64,000 nt of DNA from Microcoleus sp. FACHB-1515 (GTDB taxonomy: Bacteria; Cyanobacteriota; Cyanobacteriia; Elainellales; Elainellaceae): the NCBI RefSeq assembly GCF_014696105.1, contig NZ_JACJPO010000020.1, positions 310,001 through 374,000 of the forward strand, given 5' to 3'. A program made the position numbers and the translations under genes. Below the pieces are notes generated by a model, which searched no databases, was not told the DNA's origin, and saw only the letters and a program-made list of their open reading frames with translations. This document shows, in pieces, positions 13,639-33,738 of the stretch; the stretch's first letter is position 1; each line of letters starts with the position of its first letter.

Positions 13639-13666
13639 GTGGGGGAAGCGATCGCCTCACCCCCAC
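13639..13666 (-). other. Stable hairpin between atpA and atpC
   Basis: In the operon transcript GTGGGGG and CCCCCAC pair perfectly around a 14-base loop that itself contains GCGATCGC. No T-run follows, so this is more likely an RNA processing or stability element or a partial attenuator than a full terminator. Confidence 0.55.
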
Positions 13667-13678
13667 TCCGAATTCCGC

Positions 13679-15196
13679 CTAGATCGATGCCAGGTAGGTC
13701 TTCTTGAATTCAGTGATCGCTTCCTTCAAGAGTTTTTCGGCTTCCTCACCCATTTTCTTCTCGTTGCGAATCAGTTCGAGGAACTGCGGCTTGCTGTTCT
13801 TCAAATAGTCGCGCAGGCCGCTGGTGTATCCCGACACTTTGTCAGCCGGGATATCATCGAGATAGCCGTTGATGCCGGAGTAGATGATCGCGACCTGTTC
13901 GGCCACTGAGAGCGGCGAGTATTGCGGCTGCTTGAGAATTTCCCGCAGACGTTGACCGCGTGCAAGCTGGTTGCGCGTCGCTTGGTCAAGGTCAGAGGCA
14001 AACTGCGAGAAGGCTTCGAGTTCTGCGAACTGTGCGAGTTCGAGTTTCACTTTACCTGCGACCTGCTTCATCGCCTTAGTTTGAGCGGCAGAACCTACAC
14101 GGGACACTGAGATCCCTGCATTCACAGCCGGACGCAAGCCGGAGTTGAACAGGTCGGACGACAAGAAGATTTGTCCGTCCGTAATCGAAATCACGTTCGT
14201 CGGAATGTAAGCCGACACGTCGCCCGCTTGGGTTTCGATGATCGGCAGGGCGGTCATGCTGCCTTCGCCCAATTCAGGGCTGAGTTTGGCGGCACGCTCC
14301 AGCAAGCGCGAGTGGAGGTAGAACACGTCGCCAGGATAAGCTTCACGACCGGGCGGACGACGCAGCAGCAGGGACATCTGGCGATAGGCTTGTGCTTGCT
14401 TCGACAAGTCATCGTAAATGACCAGGGTGTGCTGACCTCGATACATGAAGTATTCGGCCAGGGTTGCACCTGTGTAGGGCGCGAGGTATTGCAGCGTGGC
14501 GGGGTCGTTGGCGTTGGCGGCGACGATGATCGTGTAGTCGAGTGCGCCGCGCTCTTGCAGCACGTTGACGACTTGAGCCACTGTCGAGGCTTTCTGCCCG
14601 ATCGCCACATACACGCAGATCACGTTCTCGCCCTTCTGGTTGAGAATCGTATCGACCGCAACCGAGGTTTTGCCCGTCTGTCTGTCACCGATGATCAGTT
14701 CGCGCTGGCCGCGTCCTACCGGGATCATGGCGTCGATCGCCGTAATGCCCGTTTGCAGCGGCTCGTAAACTGATTTGCGCTCGATGATGCCCGGTGCGGG
14801 AGATTCGATCAGGCGGGTTTCGGTTGTGTTGATTTCGCCTTTACCGTCGATCGGGCGGGCGAGCGCATCCACGACGCGACCGATCATTGCATCGCCAACG
14901 GGAATCGAGGCAATTTTTCCGGTTGAGGTGACGGAGCTACCTTCTTGGATTCCCAAGCCCGCACCCATCAGCACTGCGCCGACGTTATCTTCTTCCAGGT
15001 TGAGGGCGATGCCTACTGTGCCATCTTCAAATTCGAGGAGTTCGCCTGCCATCGCTTGCTCAAGGCCGTAGATGCGGGCGATGCCATCACCGACTTGCAG
15101 CACGGTTCCGACGTTGGAAACCTTTACGTCTTGGTCGTACTGCTCAATCTGCTGGCGAATAATGCTGCTAATTTCGTCCGGTCGAATCGCTACCAT
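13679..15196 (-). CDS. atpA: ATP synthase alpha subunit
   Basis: 505 residues, family-typical. It is the non-catalytic nucleotide-binding subunit of F1. It begins [21 protein letters not shown], carries Walker [14 protein letters not shown] at about 170, the [15 protein letters not shown] block, the PAYNAGIS-type segment as [18 protein letters not shown], and a normal C-terminus. It lies between atpH (36 bases upstream) and atpC (78 bases downstream). Confidence 0.98.
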
Positions 15197-15232
15197 GATT
15201 GTTGCTCTATAGAACGGTTAAGGGGTTTTGAG

Positions 15233-15790
15233 TTAAACGGAACTGGTCAGGCGTAAACCAATCCGTCGCAGTTGTCCGCGCAGACTGGCATCGATCACTT
15301 GGGAGCCGACTTTGATGACCACGCCGCCCATCAGGTCAGGGTCGATGCGCGTTTCGAGATCGACTTGCTGAGCATCCACGAGGCGTCGGACGCGATCTTT
15401 GACGGCTTCTTTCTGTCCGTCATTCAGTTCAACGGCTGAGGTGACTTCTGCCAGAACGGTTTGCCGCAGTTCGCGCAGGAGAGCTTGGAACTGCTTGAGG
15501 ATGCCTTCGAGGAACAGGATACGACCGCGATCGACCAGGACGAGCAAAAAGTTCAGCGTGTAGGGGTGAACCTGATCGTTGGCGATCTGTCGCAAAACGC
15601 CTTTTTTCGCGTCCGGCTTTACGAGCGGGCTGGAGAGCAGCGTTTTGAAGTCTTCCGATTCGTTCAGCAAGCCCAGCAGGTAGTTCACATCGTCGCCAAT
15701 GCGATCGACCTGATTGTTCGACTGCGCGATCGACATCAACGCCTGCGCGTAGGGTTCAAAAATTTCAGACTGAGCGAGATTGTCTTTCAT
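15233..15790 (-). CDS. atpH: ATP synthase delta subunit
   Basis: 185 residues. It attaches the peripheral stalk to the top of F1. The N-terminal helical domain starts IFEPYAQALMSIA, and the C-terminal signature region DPDLMGGVVIKVGSQVIDASLRGQL is clear at about 150-175. It starts four bases after the stop of atpF and precedes atpA, the standard position. Confidence 0.96.
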   Translation of the reverse strand: MKDNLAQSEIFEPYAQALMSIAQSNNQVDRIGDDVNYLLGLLNESEDFKTLLSSPLVKPDAKKGVLRQIANDQVHPYTLNFLLVLVDRGRILFLEGILKQFQALLRELRQTVLAEVTSAVELNDGQKEAVKDRVRRLVDAQQVDLETRIDPDLMGGVVIKVGSQVIDASLRGQLRRIGLRLTSSV

Positions 15791-15794
15791 CTAC

Positions 15795-16322
15795 CTAACT
15801 CCCCATCTGGGCGATCGATCGATCGATAAGCTGCTGCTGCGCGTCGGGGTTGATCGATTGTAGCCTCGATTCCACCTGCTCAAGCGCCAGTTGTGCGACC
15901 CGCTGCCGCAGTTCGCTGATCACGCGCTCCTGCTGTGAATTCAAGTCTTGCGCTGCGGTTGCCTTCAGACGCTCGATGTCTTGCTCAGCCTGAGCGAGAA
16001 TCGCTGCTCTAGCAGACTTGGCGCTTTCCTCGGCACTGGAGCGGATGCGAGCGGCTTCCGTTTGGGCTTGCGCCAGCTTTTGCTGCTGGTCGGCAAGCTG
16101 GGCGGCGGCATCTTGCTTGCGCTTTTCGGCATCGCGGATCGCCGATTCGATCGCAGCCCGTCGATCGCCCAGAGTCTTCCTCACAATGCCGCGCCCGAAG
16201 TACACCAAAACGCCGACGATGATCGAAATGTTGATTAAATTGGTCTCTAAAATATCGAAGTTGAGGCCGAATCCCGCTTCGTATGCCTCCTCAGCGGCGA
16301 CCGCTAGCCATACCATTCCCAT
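15795..16322 (-). CDS. atpF: ATP synthase subunit b
   Basis: 175 residues. One N-terminal membrane helix (LINISIIVGVLVYFGRGIV, about residues 30-48) leads into a long Ala/Glu/Gln coiled coil forming the peripheral stalk together with b'. The N-terminal extension before the helix (EEAYEAGFGLNFDILETN) is characteristic of cyanobacterial b. ATG codons at 16322 and 16316 are both possible starts. Confidence 0.96.
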   Translation of the reverse strand: MGMVWLAVAAEEAYEAGFGLNFDILETNLINISIIVGVLVYFGRGIVRKTLGDRRAAIESAIRDAEKRKQDAAAQLADQQQKLAQAQTEAARIRSSAEESAKSARAAILAQAEQDIERLKATAAQDLNSQQERVISELRQRVAQLALEQVESRLQSINPDAQQQLIDRSIAQMGS

Positions 16323-16344
16323 GATCTTCCTCGCTTGCCTTCTC

Positions 16345-16842
16345 CTAACCGATCGATACGCCGCCTAATAGCTTGTCGAGAATTTGCTGGCTCAAGGCGG
16401 AAACCTGCTGCTCCAGCGTTTGCATCGCTTCTTGCTTTTGGCGATCGAGTTCCTGCTGTGCCTGTTCGCGCTGAGCCTGAGCTTCCTGCTGCGCTTCGGC
16501 AATTTTTTGAGCGGCGATCTTTTGCGCGTCGGCTTGGGCGGCAGTGATTACCGCTTGCGACTGACGGCGCGTTTCTGCCAGTTCTTGTTCGTACTGCTTG
16601 GCGAGGCTTTCGGCTTTCGACAAACGTTCACGAGCGTCCGTGAGATTCGTGCGGACGTAGGTGTCGCGCTCATCGATCGCGTTGCCCAGTGGCTTAAACA
16701 GCAAAGCGTTCAGGACGGCCACCAGCAAGAGAAACTGCACTGCCATCAGGGGCAGCGTGGCATCCAAATCAAATAGTCCGCCGCCACCTTCTTCGGCAAC
16801 AGCTTCAGCAGCTTCAACTGCCAGCAAGATTGTCCAGTGCAT
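16345..16842 (-). CDS. atpF2: ATP synthase subunit b'
   Basis: 165 residues, the second peripheral-stalk subunit found in photosynthetic organisms (also called atpG in cyanobacteria). [19 protein letters not shown] leads through a membrane helix at about 28-48 to [15 protein letters not shown]-like sequence (here [15 protein letters not shown]) and a Gln/Ala-rich coiled coil. It sits between the c-ring gene and atpF. Confidence 0.95.
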
Positions 16843-16912
16843 TGTGCTTGTCTCCCGTCACGTTAAATAGAGCGTGGGGACGAAAGTGACTTGCGCCCCC
16901 ACCTGTGAAGAA

Positions 16913-17263
<351 letters not shown>

Positions 17264-17274
17264 CTACTGGGGAG

Positions 17275-18027
17275 CTAGTGCGCCCCATGCTCTTCGCCGT
17301 GTTCTTCCATCGCTTCCCCGATGTAGGTGGCCGCAAGCGTGGCGAAAATCAGAGCTTGAATTCCACTCAGGAACAAACCCAGCGCCATGACCAGCAGAGG
17401 CACGAACAGGGGAACCAGAAGAACCAGCACACCAACCACCAGTTCATCCGCCAAAATGTTGCCGAACAGACGGAAGCTCAGGGAAAGCGGCTTGGTGAAA
17501 TCTTCAATAATTTTGAACGGCAGCATGAACGGCACAGGCTGCACGTAGTTACCAAAGTAGCCCAGCCCCTTCTTGCTAAAGCCAGCGTAGAAGTAGGCCA
17601 GCGAGGTTAATAGTGCTAAGGCGACAGTGGTGTTAATGTCACTCGTCGGAGCGGCGAGTTCTCCGGCAGGCAGCTTGAACAGCCGCCAAGGAACGAGTGC
17701 GCCTGACCAGTTCGACAAAAAGATAAACAGAAACAGCGAGCCGATAAACGGAACCCAAGGGCGATATTCTTTTTCGCCGATCGAGTTTTTCGCGAGATCT
17801 CTGGTGAAATCAACCGCGTATTCCATCGCGTTTTGAAAGCCTGCCGGAACTCGTTCCACCTTGCGCGTAGCAAGCGTGGCAAACACCAGCAGGATACCGA
17901 TCACCACCCAGGAGGTGAGAATCGTTTCGCCGTGAATTTTAAAGTTGCCAAGCTGCCAGTAAAAGTGATGACCGACTTCGAGTTCCGCCAGGGGGAAGGC
18001 GTTGAAAGAAAAGTTCAACAGTTCCAT
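17275..18027 (-). CDS. atpB: ATP synthase subunit a
   Basis: 250 residues from the ATG at 18027, where the family's start-like [21 protein letters not shown] begins; an upstream GTG at 18069 would add 14 atypical residues. The polytopic membrane protein forms the proton half-channels. The essential Arg is in [20 protein letters not shown] at about residue 180. The C-terminus ends in a charged, His-rich tail ([10 protein letters not shown]). Confidence 0.96.
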
Positions 18028-18074
18028 CGGAAAAAGTTTCCCCAAAATCTTGAATGGTGCTAGGATCACCTGAA

Positions 18075-18509
18075 TCAGTTTGAAGTTGACGCGCTAAGCG
18101 TCGTCCGCAGCATGTAGAAGATGAGCGCAGCCTTGTAGGTGAGGAAACCTAAAAAAATTGGCATGATTTGAAGCTGATTCCAGCGAGAAGCCACTAAAAT
18201 CAAGCCAATCAACAGTGCGAGCCGAGTATTGCTTAATCGATCGCGCTGCCTGCCAAGCTGCTCCACATTTCTTGCCAACATTCTCAAGTAAACCACACCT
18301 GTACACGCTCCAATTAGATAATTGAGCGCAATGTTCAGCGAGTAAGTGACCCATACAGAGAAGAAGACAATTCCAGTCAAAACCAGAGTTGTTTTGAATA
18401 ACTCTTGCTGAAGCTGGTAGTACTCCTGCATGGACGCATTTGGCTCTGGTGGAAGGCCACCAGGTTGCTCCGACTGGGGAGCATCAAGAGGTTGTTCTGG
18501 CGAGTTCAC
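18075..18509 (-). CDS. atp1: ATP synthase protein I (Atp1)
   Basis: 144 residues. A Pro/Gln/Glu-rich N-terminus (1-35) precedes four predicted membrane helices: [46 protein letters not shown] and [19 protein letters not shown]. As the first gene of the ATP synthase operon it fits Atp1, an assembly factor probably for the c-ring. GTG at 18509 or ATG at 18431 (MQEYYQLQQ) could start it; the latter would drop the disordered N-terminus. Confidence 0.85.
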
Positions 18510-18636
18510 GAGTTAGAACCTTGTACCAGAGTGGTTGGCAAGGGGCTACGGCTAACCCCAAAAAAATCATACCACTCGAAGGTAACAATACTTAATTGAG
18601 AAATTTTTCGGGGATCATTTGGGGGATCAACAGCCT

Positions 18637-18732
18637 GCCCTCATCCCCCAACCCCTTCTCCCCAGGGAGAAGGGGAGCCGAACCGGGATCGGAAGTCCCT
18701 CTCCCCTAGGGAGAGGGATTTAGGGTGAGGGC
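18637..18732. repeat. Large imperfect inverted repeat (CCCTCATCCCC family)
   Basis: GCCCTCATCCCCCAACCCCTTCTCCC at the left and CTCCCCTAGGGAGAGGG...TTAGGGTGAGGGC at the right form a 96-base near-palindrome. Elements with this consensus are dispersed intergenically in cyanobacteria (recollection). It lies between the start of the ATP operon and a convergently placed methyltransferase end. Confidence 0.75.
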
Positions 18733-18762
18733 GAGAGCCAGCGGAAAAGCCGATCGCCCCCA

Positions 18763-19953
18763 TCACCGAGCCGTAAGCAAAATTAGCTGCTGTTGCTGGA
18801 GCGATCGCACTCCGTCCAATCCCAACGGCACATCCTTCAAAATCTCCTCCACCGTCCGATTCTCATTGCCATCGCTAGCTTTGAGAAATTGCCACTCCAC
18901 TTCGCTCAAATTGACGATCTGATAGTCGTAGTTAAATAGACAGCGACTATCCCAACCGTCCATGCACGGCGATCGATCGGGGATCGCTTGCAGCAAATCC
19001 TGATCGTTTGACCAATCGGTGCGATCGAACGGTGGACGAGCGAGGAAAAATTCGTAGTGGGCGATCGTTTCCGGGTCGAGCAGTTCGATCAGTCGATAGC
19101 GCTGGCGATCGCTCAGATTTTGGACGCGATCGATTAGATCGGGTGCTTTTCCCAGAAGGCGATTGAGATCCCACACACGCGGATTTGAGAAGCCGACGAA
19201 TTCTAAGCTGGATGCATCGATTAGCTCAAATAGCGTGTCGATGTTGTAGTCAATCTCTTGCGGATGGACATACATATCGGCAAAGCATTCGTCGCGCTGA
19301 TTTTCTATTGACCAGCGTTCCTGTTCGCGCTGTACCAGTCGATTTTTCTCAGGCAGACTGGCGAAGATTTGCCGTCCAACCTGGACGCCGTCCTTGTAGT
19401 CGCCGCGCTGGTCGCCTTGCAGGAGAGCGATCGCCTGCTGCATCAACTTGATTTCATGCCGTCCCAATTCGCCATAGACAAAGATGTGCATCAAGCCGCC
19501 CGGAGCAAGCTTCTTGGCAAGTGACTGGATGCCGCGAATCGGATCGGGGAGGTGATGCAGTACGCCGACGCAGTTAATCAGGTCAAATTCGCCTTCTAGC
19601 TGATCGGCATCGTAGAGCGACAAGTGGTGAAATTTGACGCGGTTTGCGCCCGATCGCTGGCAGCGTTCTTGAGCAACGGCTAAGGCTCCGCTGCTCAGAT
19701 CGATCGCCGTAATGTCAGCTTGCGGATTGAGATGGACGAGATATTCGGTTCCCACTCCCGTACCGCAGCCAGCATCGAGAATGCGGATATTCGAGCGATC
19801 GGGCTTGCGTCCCGTACAGAAGCTATGAGCGGCGAGCCAGTTCCAGCGCCAGTTGTAGCCCGGAGGTGGTTCGTCTAGCAGCGGTTCGGGTGGAAAGGGA
19901 TAGGTGTCGTAAAGTTTGGCGACGGCAGCGCTAACGGTTTGGGGATCAGACAT
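18763..19953 (-). CDS. Class I SAM-dependent methyltransferase
   Basis: 396 residues from the ATG at 19953; a TTG four codons upstream is less likely. Residues ~50-190 hold the Rossmann methyltransferase core: motif I ILDAGCGTGVGTEYL, the acidic end of beta-2 ITAIDLSSGAL, and NCVGVLHHLPDPIRG. It begins YDTYPFPPEP, seen in a subgroup of cyanobacterial methyltransferases. A ~200-residue C-terminal part (after KLAPGG) has no domain I can name. The substrate is unknown, and no neighbour helps. Confidence 0.85.
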   Translation of the reverse strand: MSDPQTVSAAVAKLYDTYPFPPEPLLDEPPPGYNWRWNWLAAHSFCTGRKPDRSNIRILDAGCGTGVGTEYLVHLNPQADITAIDLSSGALAVAQERCQRSGANRVKFHHLSLYDADQLEGEFDLINCVGVLHHLPDPIRGIQSLAKKLAPGGLMHIFVYGELGRHEIKLMQQAIALLQGDQRGDYKDGVQVGRQIFASLPEKNRLVQREQERWSIENQRDECFADMYVHPQEIDYNIDTLFELIDASSLEFVGFSNPRVWDLNRLLGKAPDLIDRVQNLSDRQRYRLIELLDPETIAHYEFFLARPPFDRTDWSNDQDLLQAIPDRSPCMDGWDSRCLFNYDYQIVNLSEVEWQFLKASDGNENRTVEEILKDVPLGLDGVRSLQQQQLILLTAR

Positions 19954-25318: not shown

Positions 25319-25513
25319 CTATCCTTCGAGATCATCGAGTCGATGGCGATCGATCGTCTTTTGCTGATTTTCATCCGCCAGCCAAAACTCGATCGCCTCA
25401 TTCACAACCGCATTCACTGACGAATCTCGAATCGCCGCAACGCTTTGGATGAGTCTATAAACCTCATCCGGCACATAGACCCGAAATTCTCGCTGATCTT
25501 TTCGTTTTGCCAT
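25319..25513 (-). CDS. Small ribbon-helix-helix-like protein (distal to DUF29)
   Basis: 64 residues: a basic N-terminus (MAKRKDQREFRVYVPDEVYRLI), then a helix with SSVNAVVNEAIEFWL, as in ribbon-helix-helix DNA-binding or antitoxin proteins. The C-terminal ENQQKTIDRHRLDDLE is echoed by the protein at 26016-26213, so the two are paralogs. It abuts the DUF29 gene with no gap (stop and start adjacent) and must be co-transcribed. The function is inferred, not known. Confidence 0.6.
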   Translation of the reverse strand: MAKRKDQREFRVYVPDEVYRLIQSVAAIRDSSVNAVVNEAIEFWLADENQQKTIDRHRLDDLEG

Positions 25514-25966
25514 CTATCGATCGCCCGACGGCAAAAACTGATCATCGAGAATTTGGGCGATCGAACAACCACATTCTGCGGGAAAAGTTTCGATCGCCAG
25601 TTCAGTTTCGTTACTCGCCGCTTTTCGTCCACGCTGATAGCATTCGGCCAGCAGTTCCGCCAGATTTGGCCGTAAACTCGGACTTTCTTGCAGCAAATCA
25701 GCAATGCGGTTGCGCTGCTCGTCGATCGTGTTTCGCCAAGATCCGCTACGTCGATTCGGCTGATATTGCCACTTGAGCAAATGCTGTAACAGTACTTCCA
25801 GGCGGCTTTTTAGCTCGCGCCGTTCCGATCGCCCCAAGCTTTCAATCTCCTCCGCGATCGCTTCCCAATCCAATCGATCGAACTGTTGCGACCGGATTTG
25901 CTGAGCGGTCTGCTCCGCCCAGGCAACAAAATCGGTTTCGTACAGTCGGGCTGTAAGTTTAGCCAT
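25514..25966 (-). CDS. DUF29 family protein
   Basis: 150 residues with the DUF29 pattern: YETDFVAWAEQTAQQIRSQQFDRLDWEAIAEEIESLGRSERRELKSRL is the defining N-terminal part, then LLKWQYQPNRRSGSWRNTI. DUF29 proteins are abundant and multi-copy in cyanobacteria, with unknown function. Coupling to a ribbon-helix-helix-like partner suggests a toxin-antitoxin-like pair (inference). Confidence 0.85.
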   Translation of the reverse strand: MAKLTARLYETDFVAWAEQTAQQIRSQQFDRLDWEAIAEEIESLGRSERRELKSRLEVLLQHLLKWQYQPNRRSGSWRNTIDEQRNRIADLLQESPSLRPNLAELLAECYQRGRKAASNETELAIETFPAECGCSIAQILDDQFLPSGDR

Positions 25967-26015
25967 TGTTTTTAAGCGTTGTCGCCAAACTTAAACGATT
26001 CATCCAGTCTAGGAT

Positions 26016-26213
26016 CTAATCTTTTGTTTCAATCTCATCGAGGTTATGTCGATCGATCAGCCGTTGAATCTCATCTTGAGACAGATATAACTCCATCGAT
26101 TCATTGAATAGCTCAGAAATGCTGATGTTTTTCAGGGCGGCAAGCGTCCGAATCAGTGCGGCTGTCCCCTCATCGCAGAACACTCTGAACTCTGGTTTTC
26201 GCTTTGCAGCCAC
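26016..26213 (-). CDS. Second small ribbon-helix-helix-like protein
   Basis: 65 residues, paralogous to the gene at 25319: MAAKRKPEFRVFCDEGTAALIRTLAALKNISISELFNESMELYL, then a tail matching RLIDRHNLDEIE. It lies 49 bases upstream of the DUF29 gene on the same strand, so the order is RHH, DUF29, RHH. It could autoregulate the cluster. Confidence 0.6.
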   Translation of the reverse strand: MAAKRKPEFRVFCDEGTAALIRTLAALKNISISELFNESMELYLSQDEIQRLIDRHNLDEIETKD

Positions 26214-26547: not shown

Positions 26548-26964
26548 ATGGCAAAAGACATTTTTCACGATGCAGTAAAAACTGCTTTGCAAAAGGATGG
26601 TTGGAAAATCACCCACGATCCTTATCGCCTGCGCTATGGCATTGCCGACGTTTATATTGATCTCGCTGCCGAAGAAGCGATCGCTGCCGAAAAAGAAGGA
26701 CGTAAAATTGCCGTAGAGATCAAAAGCTTTGCAAGCGGTTCAACCATTTCTGAGTTTCATACTGCCCTCGGCCAGTTCCTGAACTACCGCATCGCTCTAG
26801 AATCTTCAGAGGAGCCAAACCGCATTCTCTATCTAGCAGTGCCCAGCGATGTTTATCAAACTTTTCTTCGCTTTGAGCCAGCGAAAACTGTAATCGATCG
26901 ATACGACGTTTACCTAATAGTTTACAACCCAATTCAAGAGAGCATCGAACAATGGATCGAGTAG
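26548..26964 (+). CDS. xisH: XisH, fdxN element excision controlling factor-like protein
   Basis: 138 residues. Resembles XisH throughout: MAKDIFHDAVKTALQKDGWKITHDPY at the start and EGRKIAVEIKSF with an E-x-K like PD-(D/E)xK nuclease folds (about residue 55). XisH was named in Anabaena for its need in excision of the fdxN element, but homologs are widespread without that element. No fdxN or XisF recombinase is seen here. It overlaps xisI by 13 bases. Confidence 0.92.
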   Translation: MAKDIFHDAVKTALQKDGWKITHDPYRLRYGIADVYIDLAAEEAIAAEKEGRKIAVEIKSFASGSTISEFHTALGQFLNYRIALESSEEPNRILYLAVPSDVYQTFLRFEPAKTVIDRYDVYLIVYNPIQESIEQWIE

Positions 26965-27269
26965 ATGAATACCGCCAAATTGTGCGCGAATTTCTTCAAA
27001 ACTTCGCCGCTGACGATCCCGAAGCCCAACTGATTTTTGATACTGAGCGCGATCGCTATCTGGTCATGCATATAGGTTGGCGAGGCGACTATCGCATCTA
27101 CGGTTGTGCAATGCAGCTAGATATTATCGATGGCAAAGTTTGGCTTCAGCACAATAGCACTGAAATTGTTATCGACCGAGAACTAATTCAGCGTGGCATT
27201 TCCCGCAAAGATATAATCTTGGGATTTCGATCGCCCAGCATTCGAGAACGTCTTGCAGCGACTCTATGA
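26952..27269 (+). CDS. xisI: XisI, partner of XisH
   Basis: 105 residues, full length for XisI. Blocks seen are MDRVDEYRQIVREFLQ, DTERDRYLVMHIGW, and the closing GISRKDIILGF. It starts inside the end of xisH, so the two are translationally coupled. Its activity is unknown. The pair may act as a nuclease plus inhibitor (inference from the XisH fold). Confidence 0.92.
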   Translation: MDRVDEYRQIVREFLQNFAADDPEAQLIFDTERDRYLVMHIGWRGDYRIYGCAMQLDIIDGKVWLQHNSTEIVIDRELIQRGISRKDIILGFRSPSIRERLAATL

Positions 27270-27516
27270 GGTTGTGAAATTTTGGACGTAATTAATCGCA
27301 TGAGCGATCGCTTCTTGTCGTAGGGAGAAGGAGCGATCGCCTTTCAGTCCAGTCGATCGCGATCGCGATTAGATTTACTCATTCCTGCTTCTCCAAAATC
27401 ATCGAGTCTGTTGTGAGTACGATCACCTGCTCTGACTCCCCAAAGATAATAGGCGATCGATTAGCATAGAACAGGTCTCTATAGATACTCGTACGCCAGA
27501 CAATCTCTCGGTGCAT

Positions 27517-28047
27517 ATGGAAATCAATACAATTGGATTCCTCAAGATAGAACGTTTTGAGAAGGGAGCCGCTACAAGGGGAGCAATTCTAGTTACTGCT
27601 ACAGACACGAAGCCTCTAGAGTTTCGCATCACAGAACCTATTCGCCCACAGAGTTTTCAGGCGATCTTATATGGTGAGTTGCTAGATGAGTATGTTGCAG
27701 TAGAACTGATTGGACTACCTCTTCTCAATGTGTTAGAGAGTAAACCTGATTTGGTTTTAGTGTGCGATGACTTGCTGCTGGGTATAAGCAGCAAACAGCA
27801 AGTTCCGGTAGTCCGGATAGCGAGAGCAGGTGAAACCTTGGGAAAAAAGGAAGCTGAGATTCAGCAACTAATCTCGCCAAATTCAAATTATCCATCAGCA
27901 CAGCTCTACATTCCTGAAAAATATACGGAAAATCGCAAAACAATTGCTGAACAGCTACAAGTGATCTTTTCACTGAAAAACCTTGTAGAACCATTCGAGC
28001 GTCTTGAAAAGGCTTGTACTGATGTGCATCGTACTGAACGCAGGTAA
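27517..28047 (+). CDS. Unknown protein paired with an SNF2 helicase
   Basis: 176 residues from the ATG at 27517 (a GTG two codons earlier is possible). No named domain is recognised. Notable stretches are FLKIERFEKGAATRGAILVT, LEFRITEPIRPQSFQAILYG, and VAVELIGLPLLNVLESKPDLVLVCDD, giving an alternating strand/helix pattern and an acidic patch VCDD. I recall similar sequences beside SNF2 helicases in other cyanobacteria, but this needs a search. It lies 12 bases upstream of the helicase ATG. Base use is AT-richer than the flanks, with no HIP1. Confidence 0.8.
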   Translation: MEINTIGFLKIERFEKGAATRGAILVTATDTKPLEFRITEPIRPQSFQAILYGELLDEYVAVELIGLPLLNVLESKPDLVLVCDDLLLGISSKQQVPVVRIARAGETLGKKEAEIQQLISPNSNYPSAQLYIPEKYTENRKTIAEQLQVIFSLKNLVEPFERLEKACTDVHRTERR

Positions 28048-28059
28048 TAAACAGTGTTT

Positions 28060-30759
28060 ATGAATCCAATCCGCTGGATTGCAAAACAAATTACTCGCAA
28101 AGCATCGGGTGTTTGTCAGCCTGAAATTTATCCAGTTTCAGATTGCAAAATTCAGTCACCACTAATTGCTGCAAAGCGTTTTCGGCTGCCTAACGTTTTA
28201 GTATCTGCTGACCTTCACTCCGCAGTAGTAGAAAGCAGATCATCAGCTAACCTGCTGCCACAAATACCCAAAATTCATGAAATATCAGAACCATTTAATA
28301 AGCTCGACATCTCAGCTTATGCCAGTGTCGAGATTGCGACGCCAGAAATTCTTGAATTAACTGACTGGCTGGCTGAAGCAGCCTGCTCCAGGAATCATGT
28401 AGAAACTCTCGCAGTTCCCAATATCTATAGATACAGAAATATTGAGAAGTTTAGAGTAGCAGTACTGACAGATTGGTTCTTCGCTTTAGATATTCCTCAG
28501 ATATTAGAAGATTTTTTTGCTACTCTCGATAGACCAGAAATCTTAAAGTGTTGTTTTAGTCAAAACGGACAACAAGGGAAGATACAATCAATTCAAGAAC
28601 CTTTAAGAAAACGGAAGAACATACAGGAAGGAAAGGACAAAGCTCTATTTAAGTCACCGAGCTACTGCGAAATTCTACACCCTATTCTCCTACCACCCTT
28701 ACATCTAGAAGATTATGATAGCCTAGATTTTTATAGCCCGTTACGTGATTACCAAAAGCAAGGTGTTAAGTTCCTGTTTGATAATCAATCAGCATTGCTA
28801 GCGGACGAAATGGGAACTGGGAAAACCGTTCAAGCAGTAAATGCGCTGCGATTACTATTTCGTCAAGCACACATTAGATCGGTTCTGATTGTTTGCCCTC
28901 CTGCTGTTATTGGTAGCGTTGATCTAAGTATTGAAACTGGCAACTCTGAAGGATGGAGAGGACATCTCTATCACTGGGCATCAGAGTTGCAAGTTGCTGT
29001 TATGCATGGCATGACGAAAGAACAAAGAAGGCTAAACTGGTGTAAACTTTTTCATGTTTATATTACAACCTACGATACTTTGAGAGGCGATCTAACTGAA
29101 GGTGTACTCGTGGATCTCCAACAATTTGACTGCGTCATTCTAGATGAAGCCCAAAAAGTTAAGAACAGAAATACAAAGACGGCAAGAGCCATTTATGGCC
29201 TTCAGACAAATTATCGTTGGGCTTTAACTGGTACACCAGTTGAGAATCGATTAGATGATGTGAAAGCATTGTTTGATTTTATTCGTCCGGGAACTTTTTT
29301 GGGAAGTGCTGAGTATTCGCCCCAGGACGTTTCAAGCACTATCAAGCCGTTTGTGTTGCGTCGCTTGAAGCAGGATGTTTTGCAAGATCTTCCTGATAAG
29401 GAGAGGCAGGAGGTCTGGCTTGATTTGGATACCGTCCAGCAAAACGCTTACGATCAAGTATTAGATGCAGGTCGTAGAAAGATTGAAACTTCACTAAATG
29501 GAGAACAAGCGTCTCAAACTAAAAGCCATATTTTTGCATTGATAACACAACTGAAGCAAATTTGTAATTTCGCGAAAGAAGAAACAACAAGCCCTAAAGC
29601 AAAGGTATTGCTGGAAACATTAGAAACTATTGCAGCCAACCAGAAAAAAGTACTTGTCTTCTCTCAATACCGGACACAAGGAACGGATAAGATCGCCAAG
29701 CTACTGACTCAAGCAGGAATCCGTTATGTATTTTATAAAGGATCACAAGAGCAGAAAAACCAAGCTCTAAGTGATTTCAAGAATAAATCAGAAGTTACAG
29801 TTTTTCTATCAACAATTCAAACTGCTGGATATGGTATCACTCTAACTGAAGCAACATATGTTATTCATTTTGACCATCCTTGGAATCCAGCTAGGATGCA
29901 AAATGCCGAGGATCGCGTGCATCGATTCGGTCAAGAGAAAGGAGTAACAATTTACAGTTTCTGGATGAAAAACACCATTGAGGAACGGATCAAAAAGAAG
30001 CTAATTGATAAGCGCATCTTGATTGATAATACAATCAATAGCTTGGCTGTTGGAGTAGATGATGATAAACTGTTGTCCACCGAAGATTGGCTAGATATCT
30101 TTGATATTAAGCTTGTCAAGAAGACAGTGAATGGGCAAGCTGATGTTGGAAAGTTAGATCAAAAGATTCAAGCTAGACGGTTAGTGGGGCGATCGAACCT
30201 TCAGAACAATCAGAATAAACTCTCTCCACCCAGTGACTCGTCTCGCCTCATGCATGAGGTGGAACAAATTAAGCGGACGTTAGAAACCCTAGCTGATTCA
30301 TCACAACGCATGATTAATGTCCAAGGAAACCACATTTACATATCTGTAAAGGAACTCACATTAATGTCAGATCAACAACCCGTTTTTAATCAGCAAGGCG
30401 CAACTATCGGTGTTAACTACGCCGCTAAAGATAGCAATCCTAAAGTTATTCAGAACGTTCAAAACACTCAAAATTCCTCGGAGACAGCTCTAGCTGCTGT
30501 TGTGGAAGTTATTCAGGCGTTGAAGCAGAAAAATACCCTTGTGAAAGATGAGCAACAGGCGCTCAGCATTATTGATGCAGAGTTTAAAGAGATTAGAGCT
30601 AAACAGCTTCCTCAGTGGCGGGATTTGATAAATGTTAAACGTCTCTGGAACGGTGGAAAGAAAGCAGCAGTCAAAGTTGCAGAACATTTCACCGAGTCTG
30701 ATCCTTGGGGTAAAGGTTTTATAGCCTTCCTTGAAGGCGTTAGTGAGGACATAGAGTAA
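28060..30759 (+). CDS. SNF2-family DEAD/DEAH-box helicase/translocase with unusual N- and C-terminal regions
   Basis: 899 residues from the ATG at 28060 (a GTG two codons before is also in frame). Residues ~1-225 are unassigned. The SNF2 motor spans ~225-660: Q-like YQKQGVKFL, Walker A ADEMGTGKTVQAV (~249), DEAQKVKN (~363), LTGTPVENRLDD, VFLSTIQTAGYGITLTEA, and motif VI AEDRVHRFGQ (~617). It should be a dsDNA translocase. Residues ~735-899 hold a coiled segment, then FNQQGATIGVNYAAKDSN and a helical tail, a layout I have seen on cyanobacterial NTPase/pentapeptide conflict proteins. Together with the preceding gene it forms an AT-rich, HIP1-free two-gene unit. Confidence 0.9.
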   Translation: MNPIRWIAKQITRKASGVCQPEIYPVSDCKIQSPLIAAKRFRLPNVLVSADLHSAVVESRSSANLLPQIPKIHEISEPFNKLDISAYASVEIATPEILELTDWLAEAACSRNHVETLAVPNIYRYRNIEKFRVAVLTDWFFALDIPQILEDFFATLDRPEILKCCFSQNGQQGKIQSIQEPLRKRKNIQEGKDKALFKSPSYCEILHPILLPPLHLEDYDSLDFYSPLRDYQKQGVKFLFDNQSALLADEMGTGKTVQAVNALRLLFRQAHIRSVLIVCPPAVIGSVDLSIETGNSEGWRGHLYHWASELQVAVMHGMTKEQRRLNWCKLFHVYITTYDTLRGDLTEGVLVDLQQFDCVILDEAQKVKNRNTKTARAIYGLQTNYRWALTGTPVENRLDDVKALFDFIRPGTFLGSAEYSPQDVSSTIKPFVLRRLKQDVLQDLPDKERQEVWLDLDTVQQNAYDQVLDAGRRKIETSLNGEQASQTKSHIFALITQLKQICNFAKEETTSPKAKVLLETLETIAANQKKVLVFSQYRTQGTDKIAKLLTQAGIRYVFYKGSQEQKNQALSDFKNKSEVTVFLSTIQTAGYGITLTEATYVIHFDHPWNPARMQNAEDRVHRFGQEKGVTIYSFWMKNTIEERIKKKLIDKRILIDNTINSLAVGVDDDKLLSTEDWLDIFDIKLVKKTVNGQADVGKLDQKIQARRLVGRSNLQNNQNKLSPPSDSSRLMHEVEQIKRTLETLADSSQRMINVQGNHIYISVKELTLMSDQQPVFNQQGATIGVNYAAKDSNPKVIQNVQNTQNSSETALAAVVEVIQALKQKNTLVKDEQQALSIIDAEFKEIRAKQLPQWRDLINVKRLWNGGKKAAVKVAEHFTESDPWGKGFIAFLEGVSEDIE

Positions 30760-30807
30760 AACCTTTACATGGGCCATGAAGAGCGATCGCCCCTCATCTT
30801 CACGACA

Positions 30808-32949: not shown

Positions 32950-33165
32950 TTACTCTTTCTCCAGGCAAGCTAAAGCCTCTTCTTGATTCAGCAAAGAACT
33001 CTCCTGCGCTTCATCCATTGCTCTGCTCAAACAGTAATCTTCAATTCGCTCTAGTATTTCCTCAAGCGAAATGTTTTCAGGAAAAAGCTGTCGCCAAAAT
33101 TCGATCGGGACGACAACCGCTTTAAGTTGACCTTGTTTATCAGTGAGATATTCGACTTCTAGCAT
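32950..33165 (-). CDS. Small antitoxin-like protein
   Basis: 71 residues from the ATG at 33165 (MLEVEYLTDKQGQLKAVVVPIEFWRQLFP); a longer frame upstream overlaps the zinc-finger gene and is unlikely. The opening beta-hairpin followed by an acidic helical tail (ENISLEEILERIEDYCLSRAMDEAQES) resembles many short cyanobacterial antitoxins. No toxin-like partner lies downstream, but two TA-like genes lie 50 bases upstream on the same strand. Confidence 0.5.
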   Translation of the reverse strand: MLEVEYLTDKQGQLKAVVVPIEFWRQLFPENISLEEILERIEDYCLSRAMDEAQESSLLNQEEALACLEKE

Positions 33166-33214
33166 GATGTTGATGGGTTGTGATGAATCGATCGGAGTGT
33201 CGCAATCAAACTTT

Positions 33215-33463
33215 TCAGCTATAGCTGGCGACTGCAACCGGACGCTCGATCGATCGCTGCTTGCGTTCACGCTTAATCTTTTCAATTTGATGCAGTGTTT
33301 CTGCGGTCAAGTAGCTTTCACCGCAATGAGGACAGCTAATCATAGGAATATTTTCAATCACGAGTAGATCTTGACCTTTGCCATAAGTTCTACTCACTCT
33401 GCGGATTCGCGCTCCAGCTTGGCCGCAAATGTCACAGGCGATCGATTTGTCTTGATTCAACAT
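33215..33463 (-). CDS. YgiT-type zinc finger protein (antitoxin-like)
   Basis: 82 residues. Two Cys pairs, CDICG (near residue 10) and CPHCG (near residue 44), flank a beta segment ISCPHCGESYLTAET; the layout is that of the YgiT/MqsA N-terminal zinc finger. In known systems this is the antitoxin of an RNase-like toxin. Its start overlaps the stop of the DUF4258 gene by seven bases, so the order is DUF4258 then zinc finger, like mqsRA. It lacks the C-terminal HTH of full MqsA. Confidence 0.8.
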   Translation of the reverse strand: MLNQDKSIACDICGQAGARIRRVSRTYGKGQDLLVIENIPMISCPHCGESYLTAETLHQIEKIKRERKQRSIERPVAVASYS

Positions 33464-33738
33464 AAGTAAACCGTGATAATTACAACTTTTCCGGTTAATC
33501 CTAGTTTAACAATCACTTCAGCTTCATCATTCTCAATAGTCAATCCTTTGATTCGATATTTCCACTCGCCTGTATTTCTGTCTTTCTGACGCTCTAGAAT
33601 TTCACCTGTAAGCACGATCGATTCAATATCAAAGATTGGCAAATCATCGTCTGTCATTTCTTCTTCTGCATGAAGCGTCATTACATACTGGCGCTGGCGA
33701 ATTTTCTCCTGTATTTGTTGCAGAACTTGATTAAACAC
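33457..33738 (-). CDS. DUF4258 protein, probable toxin of the YgiT pair
   Basis: 93 residues from a GTG at 33738. The DUF4258 mark is MTLHAEEEMTDDDLPIFDIESIVLTGEI, with YRIKGLTIENDEAEVIVKL and VVIITVYL following. DUF4258 is related to the BrnT/MqsR-like RNase fold, hence the toxin guess. It is first in the cluster and overlaps the zinc-finger gene. Confidence 0.75.
   Translation of the reverse strand: MFNQVLQQIQEKIRQRQYVMTLHAEEEMTDDDLPIFDIESIVLTGEILERQKDRNTGEWKYRIKGLTIENDEAEVIVKLGLTGKVVIITVYLC

Follow-up and report, generated by a model that had tools for sequence, protein, structure and literature searches.

The motors in the described pairs of an RNase H-fold protein and a helicase are of different kinds: HerA is FtsK-like and DinG is a different SF2 helicase, neither of them belonging to SNF2. 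The RNase H fold is also that of RuvC. In the parts of the literature drawn on here, endonuclease V (EndoV), UvrC, NurA, and Piwi are placed within one RNase H-like superfamily, and an incomplete site is stated to leave such enzymes often inactive (PMC3985635). pPIWI-RE is proposed to be part of an RNA-dependent restriction system (PMC3702460), and an excerpt on phage-encoded Cas9 describes a form whose RuvC domain is inactivated and that is associated with an SNF2 helicase (PMC10910872). Small effector-associated domain (EAD) modules are reported, in the part consulted, to be joined to core components as well as to effectors, with homotypic coupling as the proposed principle (Kaur et al. 2020; PMC7159879). 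The locus considered here lies in a stretch of 64,000 nucleotides (nt) from Microcoleus sp. FACHB-1515 (assembly of 5.79 Mb in 96 contigs; contig NZ_JACJPO010000020.1, positions 310,001 to 374,000), called the window in the following, with all coordinates counted from its first letter. It consists of two genes, here denoted gene A and the SNF2 gene. With a confidence that stays a little below even, the pair is read as an accessory, horizontally moving two-gene system, most likely acting against invading DNA.

Gene A (27517-28047, plus strand) extends from an ATG at 27517 to a TAA at 28047 and encodes 176 amino acids (aa). The SNF2 gene (28060-30759, plus strand) encodes 899 aa from an ATG at 28060 or 901 aa from an alternative GTG at 28054, leaving 12 nt or 6 nt, respectively, between the genes. 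A first-pass annotation of the sequence had placed both genes on one strand, 12 nt apart, which the open reading frame (ORF) coordinates confirm, and had proposed a two-gene unit of an undescribed kind; the unit is indeed undescribed in the libraries searched, and its distribution is patchy. The survey of co-occurrence that the annotation suggested returned an intact pair in Symplocastrum and a remnant in Stenomitos, but also an Okeania SNF2 gene without A.

A BLAST search with A found it in 2 of 388 genomes of the class (own genome included), and a pattern-based scan of genome contigs with the SNF2 protein led to three loci. In Symplocastrum torsivum, A (181 aa, 50% identity) is followed 5 nt downstream by the SNF2 gene (885 aa), the pair lying between hemB-like and histidine-kinase-like genes (neighbours named by eye). 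In Stenomitos rutilans, A ends at 117 aa and the SNF2 frame has lost its front part, leaving a remnant that adjoins insertion sequence-like genes (by eye); a gene for a phage-type integrase (Pfam E 1.8e-12) lies at a distance of about 4 kb. In Okeania SIO3B5, the open SNF2 frame corresponds to the Symplocastrum protein from about residue 35 onward; a stop codon lies in frame close to its beginning, a TnpB-like fragment lies upstream (by eye), and no A was found on the 9.8-kb contig. Counting the window, A or a piece of it is kept at three of the four orthologous SNF2 loci, the fourth being disturbed on that side. A pattern scan of genome contigs with A gave no result; because its exact peptide patterns overlooked the existing copies in Stenomitos and Symplocastrum, the contig pattern scans are lower bounds. 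Nothing was found with A in viral contigs, plasmids, and phages. Sinorhizobium plasmid matches to the Symplocastrum A (E 0.2-1) were rejected, the best of them lying antisense to a VapC gene.

Both genes diverge concordantly, with A showing 62% identity to Stenomitos and 50% to Symplocastrum and the SNF2 protein 68% and 52%. Between the window and Symplocastrum, identity at the three codon positions amounts to 0.62/0.73/0.47 for A and 0.72/0.86/0.47 for the motor, and the better conservation of first and second positions suggests selection on both proteins. An AT-rich island that harbours several small accessory genes is a setting in which two unrelated neighbours could be joined by chance. 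Such an origin is most improbable here, as order and near-abutting ends repeat in Symplocastrum, both genes occur in the Stenomitos remnant, and the genomic surroundings differ; protein identities of 50-68% argue against one recent transfer as the source of the three loci.

The higher AT content of the pair relative to its flanks, pointed out from the letters of the sequence, is borne out by a GC content of 40-45% over 26-31 kb vs about 50-59% in most other 1-kb windows. Third-position GC is 0.36 in A and 0.33/0.39 in the SNF2 gene vs 0.45-0.66 in six flanking genes; XisH, XisI, and DUF29 genes nearby show 0.42-0.54. The octamer HIP1 (GCGATCGC) occurs 128 times in the window vs 5.2 copies expected and is absent from 27367-30782 in the count over all 64 kb. 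The lack of HIP1 in the pair, as first described, is thus correct, but it counts for little: a gap of normal GC at 13656-18800 (5.1 kb), with ATP-synthase genes inside (named by eye), is longer than the gap over the pair. Because this stretch is HIP1-free as well, absence of the octamer is a weak mark of foreign DNA, and taking it as proof was rejected. Three sigma-70-like matches were found in the region vs 6.7 expected, none of them upstream of A.

The product of A gave no match in Pfam, PADLOC, and PHROGs (E<=1) or among PDB sequences (E<=10), and its one match in NCBIfam was meaningless (E 0.07). A PDB sequence match to Crov588 (E 3.4e-5 from summed repeats) was rejected, no repeat being significant alone. 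The gene is single-copy in its own genome, where one further match reached E 0.68. Neither the A family nor the tail module of the window SNF2 protein treated below has a model in the libraries searched. The earlier statement that the first protein has no recognizable domain therefore holds for sequence libraries, whereas structure prediction, one of the checks proposed at the time, suggests an RNase H-like fold of the EndoV type; homologues of the protein occur in other classes of the phylum as well. A first AlphaFold2 model from 3 sequences (predicted local distance difference test, pLDDT, 41) was left unused; a model from nine sequences reached a pLDDT of 89.2 and a predicted template-modelling score (pTM) of 0.88. 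In the Foldseek ranking of PDB entries for this model, EndoV came first (best E 3.7e-6), followed by Argonaute/Piwi proteins, and the top viral model was also an EndoV (E 2.2e-4). VIA-align, used as a second look at the candidates supplied by Foldseek, aligned 164 of the 176 residues with human ENDOV (Z 12.9, root-mean-square deviation, rmsd, 3.4). Z values of 11.7-12.9 were obtained for the EndoV chains in the list and 12.1 for the archaeal protein 2qh9, with lower values for Piwi (up to 11.1), the NurA-like protein 1zup (10.2), NurA (9.1; 7f6d), and UvrC (8.9). An hhalign comparison of the A alignment (14 proteins) with 8 EndoVs scored 24.1 (P 0.0095), the best of 60 column shuffles reaching 21.6. 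Taken as modelled, A is predicted to adopt an RNase H-like fold, closest to that of EndoV.

For the active site, residues E82 and D103 of nfi are taken here to be the helix Glu and the strand-4 Asp of EndoV, both with catalytic roles, and D35 is assumed to be the first-strand catalytic Asp. E82 and D103 stand at the same distance of 21 residues in 8/8 EndoVs, and E/D63 and D84 are present with this identical, gapless spacing in 14/14 A-family proteins, the window protein included; hhalign sets D103 on A residue 83, one off D84. The D35 column holds Asp in 8/8 EndoVs; in strand 1 of A (residues 5-14), any given column has an acidic residue in at most 2 of the 14 proteins, so a counterpart of D35 is missing. 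Toward the C-terminus, E158 is found in 13/13 members and an acid at position 155 in 12/13 (Asn in the window), either of them a possible counterpart of the acid or His near the C-terminal helix of EndoV (nfi D206). Because the first-strand catalytic Asp is missing, A is probably catalytically dead or altered, acting as a binding subunit or as a modified nuclease. A composite active site, completed by a partner, is possible.

The SNF2 protein starts with a region without family match (residues 1-225; 28060-28734, plus strand), followed by the motor (28735-30039, plus strand), which is 70% identical to that of the Symplocastrum orthologue. The motor exceeds the Pfam cut-offs (SNF2-rel_dom 233-505, Helicase_C 517-626), and its motifs GTGKT, DEAQ, TGTP, GYGITLT, and DRVHRxGQ were all located intact; both the complete motor and the ~225-residue N-terminus lacking a family assignment had been recognized in the first-pass annotation. 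The nearest SNF2 paralogue in the own genome shares 38% identity in the motor only, and a search with the N-terminus found, of 376 genomes, the own genome only. A P-x-[IV] pattern, picked after inspection of the sequences, occurs 9 times in the N-terminus of the window protein vs 2.46 expected (0/2000 shuffles reach 9) and 7 times in that of Symplocastrum vs 2.13 expected (p 0.003), with Okeania not enriched; a looser version gave p 0.01, 0.12, and 0.23 for the window, Symplocastrum, and Okeania, respectively. Binding of these motifs by A is purely conjectural.

The motor matches the profiles of ZorD, DpdE, and DrmD, as would be the case if a degenerate DISARM, Zorya, Dpd, or BREX system had kept only its SNF2 gene beside an unrelated small neighbour. 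This is very unlikely. The best PADLOC and NCBIfam matches of the protein (ZorD, DpdE, pilus-regulating Snf2) cover the motor, with NCBIfam scores far below cut-off, and a remnant of DISARM, Zorya, or Dpd was rejected on this ground; moreover, A adjoins the orthologues in Symplocastrum and Stenomitos and has no PADLOC model. The scan of A, XisH, XisI, and ten other nearby proteins (13 in total) gave no match to a Drm partner model, in agreement with the absence of DISARM partners noted before, and none to ZorA/B, the best ZorD match being restricted to the motor and starting at profile position 443.

The part downstream of the motor, previously given as an unassigned tail of ~165 residues, had to be redrawn: it comprises about 240 residues, with a linker (30040-30381, plus strand), of which only the first part is similar among orthologues, and a terminal, adaptor-like module of ~125 aa (30382-30756, plus strand) that is common to NACHT-HEAT and Roco proteins. 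Downstream of the motor, the SNF2 proteins of the window, Symplocastrum, and Okeania resemble each other only in the first stretch, and that of Stenomitos has the window-type tail (52% identity). The window module was found in 13/377 genomes (own included; several matches partial) in a phylum search scoring up to 8 candidates per genome, one other search having scored 2 per genome. Its carriers are NACHT-HEAT proteins (53-66% identity) from three genomes, HEAT proteins, one of them in the own genome, which holds two tail copies, LRR-Roc-COR proteins of one genome (G344; G and L numbers are our handles for genomes and loci) and of an Acaryochloris plasmid, one protein with a sub-threshold winged-helix match (possible winged helix-turn-helix), and stand-alone proteins of 126-173 aa. 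Part of the module is present in L058 (NACHT-HEAT) and L060 (NACHT below cut-off), and in the carriers read the tail is located at or near the C-terminus. Short proteins consisting mostly of the module occur in L052, L053, L054, and L059; these may be free adaptors or decoys.

A 660-aa protein (L031 28-2010, genome G171), which matches the PADLOC candidate family PDC-M36A (E 5.6e-26) and has no Pfam match (E<=1), shares 80% identity at its end with the Symplocastrum tail. This tail also resembles two stand-alone genes on plasmids, one of Crinalium beside a NACHT gene (62% identity; NACHT E 3.1e-10) and one of Nostoc beside a formylglycine-generating-enzyme gene (36%). Among the loci compared, the carrier sets of the window and Symplocastrum tails do not overlap. 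The Okeania tail gave a sub-threshold match to EAD9 (E 0.057, 13.6 bits vs a cut-off of 25). By analogy, the distribution of the tails appears to follow the pattern of effector-associated domains.

Results computed for this locus are the pair and its recurrence, the predicted fold of A, the motor motifs, the differing tails of the orthologues, and the same tails on NACHT, Roco, and candidate-defence proteins; binding, translocation, recruitment, and a defence phenotype are what we infer from them. A role on DNA is suggested by the fold of A together with the SNF2 motor, and a role in genome conflict by the tails shared with NACHT, Roco, and candidate-defence proteins, the patchiness, the AT-rich island, and the decayed copy near an integrase. 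A would bind a nucleic-acid structure or the N-terminal region of the motor protein and thereby give the SNF2 protein its target. The latter would translocate on duplex DNA, driven by ATP, and its C-terminal tail may serve as an adaptor that recruits or assembles other proteins with the same tail, as death-like adaptors do; the effectors coupled in this way would be encoded elsewhere. In its most specific form, which is possible but doubtful, an EndoV-shaped pseudo-nuclease, whose family is old in the cyanobacterial phylum, would load the SNF2 translocase, and a swappable tail would wire the latter to different NACHT, Roco, or nuclease effectors, giving an invader-sensing device of an undescribed class with the motor as the core of modular death-type signaling.

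Several observations weigh against an anti-invader role as outlined. Intact pairs are known in two genomes only. The link between A and EndoV rests mainly on predicted structure: the top Foldseek alignment is loose (template-modelling score 0.44, rmsd 9.8), the hhalign probability is only 4.3%, global alignment gave nothing, and a PDB sequence search with A had no EndoV among its matches. Only a few orthologous SNF2 proteins stand behind the notion of tail 'exchange', and no EAD was among the Pfam matches of the window tail at E<=5, the Symplocastrum tail having no match at all in the same test. For the ten neighbouring proteins scanned, no PADLOC model was found (E<=0.001). A further point is the setting of A outside the class: at 9 of the 11 loci, a motif scan places a sigma-factor gene immediately before A, a context other than defence, so that the ancestral role of A may be regulatory.

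A profile of three A proteins matched 8/377 genomes of the phylum, namely the own genome, six outside the class (E 7e-13 to 1e-20), and one, G549, whose weak, broken match (E 0.008, two in-frame stops) was dropped from the family. With a wider profile, A was found in 7/46 genomes in the class of G598, including 6/6 sampled genomes of one taxonomic family; the class and phylum searches are samples with overlapping draws. The genomes outside the class that carry A are presumably non-photosynthetic relatives, and A-like proteins may also be present in planctomycetes. Occurrence in all sampled genomes of one family means that A can be a core gene, as a DNA-repair or genome-maintenance accessory might be, in which an EndoV/NurA-like subunit and an SNF2 remodeller would work on host DNA that is damaged or hemi-modified and take no part in defence. 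The HerA-NurA complex (7f6d, Z 9.1) likewise joins an RNase H-fold partner to a translocase. For the window this is rather unlikely, as A is patchy in its class (2/388) and is found in an AT-rich island, one copy is decayed, and the tails are common to NACHT and Roco proteins.

The sigma factors upstream of A were checked by profile in L071 (FliA/WhiG models) and L085 (sigma-70 domains), and the other two of the 11 loci have an acyl-CoA dehydrogenase gene in this place (L074 by Pfam, L073 by eye). An ORF of about 190-340 aa directly follows A in 11/11 loci (by eye). The order sigma factor, A family, gene B is kept in L070, L071, L072, L075, and L083-L087; gene B encodes about 280-340 aa, and three copies scanned matched no Pfam/NCBIfam family over cut-off. 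B was located by motif scan in 4/11 loci, the remaining downstream ORFs being recognized by eye. In six tested A loci outside the class, no SNF2-like ORF was found. Since the family there stands mostly behind a sigma gene and lacks SNF2 in the tested loci, the tie of A to SNF2 looks secondary. In cyanobacteria, A, as the ancestral operon partner of a FliA/WhiG-type sigma factor, might accordingly steer a RapA-like SNF2 remodeller of transcription. Such a regulatory pair is improbable: the ORF lists read for the window, Symplocastrum, and Stenomitos contain no sigma gene beside the pair, and hhalign detected no homology between gene B and the SNF2 N-terminus (probability 0.1), which left B unsupported as a homologue of that region. 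The B alignment used is without the L073 and L074 forms and includes some rows with stop-to-stop extensions. P-x-[IV] enrichment at p<0.05 was seen in 1/7 B proteins, the looser pattern giving no value below 0.17.

Should the pair act against invading DNA as proposed, it would join the RNase H-fold/helicase conflict pairs and the adaptor-coupled immune networks, two themes that stand apart in the literature consulted. The A family, for which Pfam, NCBIfam, PHROG, and PADLOC hold no model, would gain a confident predicted fold and a testable role, and the tail module could be used as bait for further partners.

The genes around the pair include an XisH (Pfam E 6.6e-54) and XisI (1.1e-33) pair at 26548-27269, just upstream of A. 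A PADLOC match of XisH to REase_II (E 0.023) is noise, and a second XisH is present in the own genome on contig C52. Farther upstream, at 25319-26213 on the minus strand, a DUF29 protein is encoded between two small ribbon-helix-helix (RHH)-like proteins with sub-cut-off Pfam matches, possibly a small accessory module; of the neighbours named in the first-pass annotation, XisH, XisI, and DUF29 thus pass the Pfam cut-offs, but both RHH calls miss them. Beyond an acs-like gene, a row at 32950-33738 (minus strand) encodes a DUF4258 protein (Pfam E 2.2e-12), a small zinc-ribbon protein whose match to the MqsA antitoxin is sub-threshold, and a protein with a RelB-like antitoxin domain (E 2.3e-15); these are possible toxin-antitoxin genes.

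Compared with EndoV itself (PF04493; PDB 4nsp, 4xpu, 2w35), A shares the predicted fold over nearly its whole length, the helix acid and strand-4 Asp spaced by 21 residues, and a C-terminal motif resembling EP-x(1-2)-R (by eye). It differs in lacking the first-strand Asp, in not keeping the FRE and DGxG motifs as such (by eye), and in that sequence libraries do not detect it as EndoV. A pair of an EndoV-like protein and an SNF2 motor is named in none of the literature titles and abstract openings found. ZorD (Zorya), DpdE (Dpd), and DrmD (DISARM) resemble the SNF2 protein in the motor but not in the N- and C-terminal regions, and their partner genes are others. pPIWI-RE/DinG and HerA-NurA correspond to the pair in coupling an RNase H-fold protein to a DNA motor; unlike in pPIWI-RE/DinG, no restriction endonuclease gene was found here. 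The phage Cas9, as far as the excerpt describes it, offers a loose parallel, an RNase H-fold domain deprived of catalysis with an SNF2 partner, but it is Cas9-sized, has an active HNH domain, and resides in phage genomes, and no relation to A is shown (PMC10910872). In EAD systems, according to the part consulted, a SWI2/SNF2-clade helicase with a Z1C domain stands on the effector side and not as a core with an A-like gene (PMC7159879). They nevertheless resemble the present locus in placing a small non-enzymatic terminal module on a core NTPase, here the SNF2 protein, and on separate immune-type proteins. The parts of the pair are thus of known kinds, i.e. SNF2 motors, RNase H-fold partners, and coupling of the EAD type.

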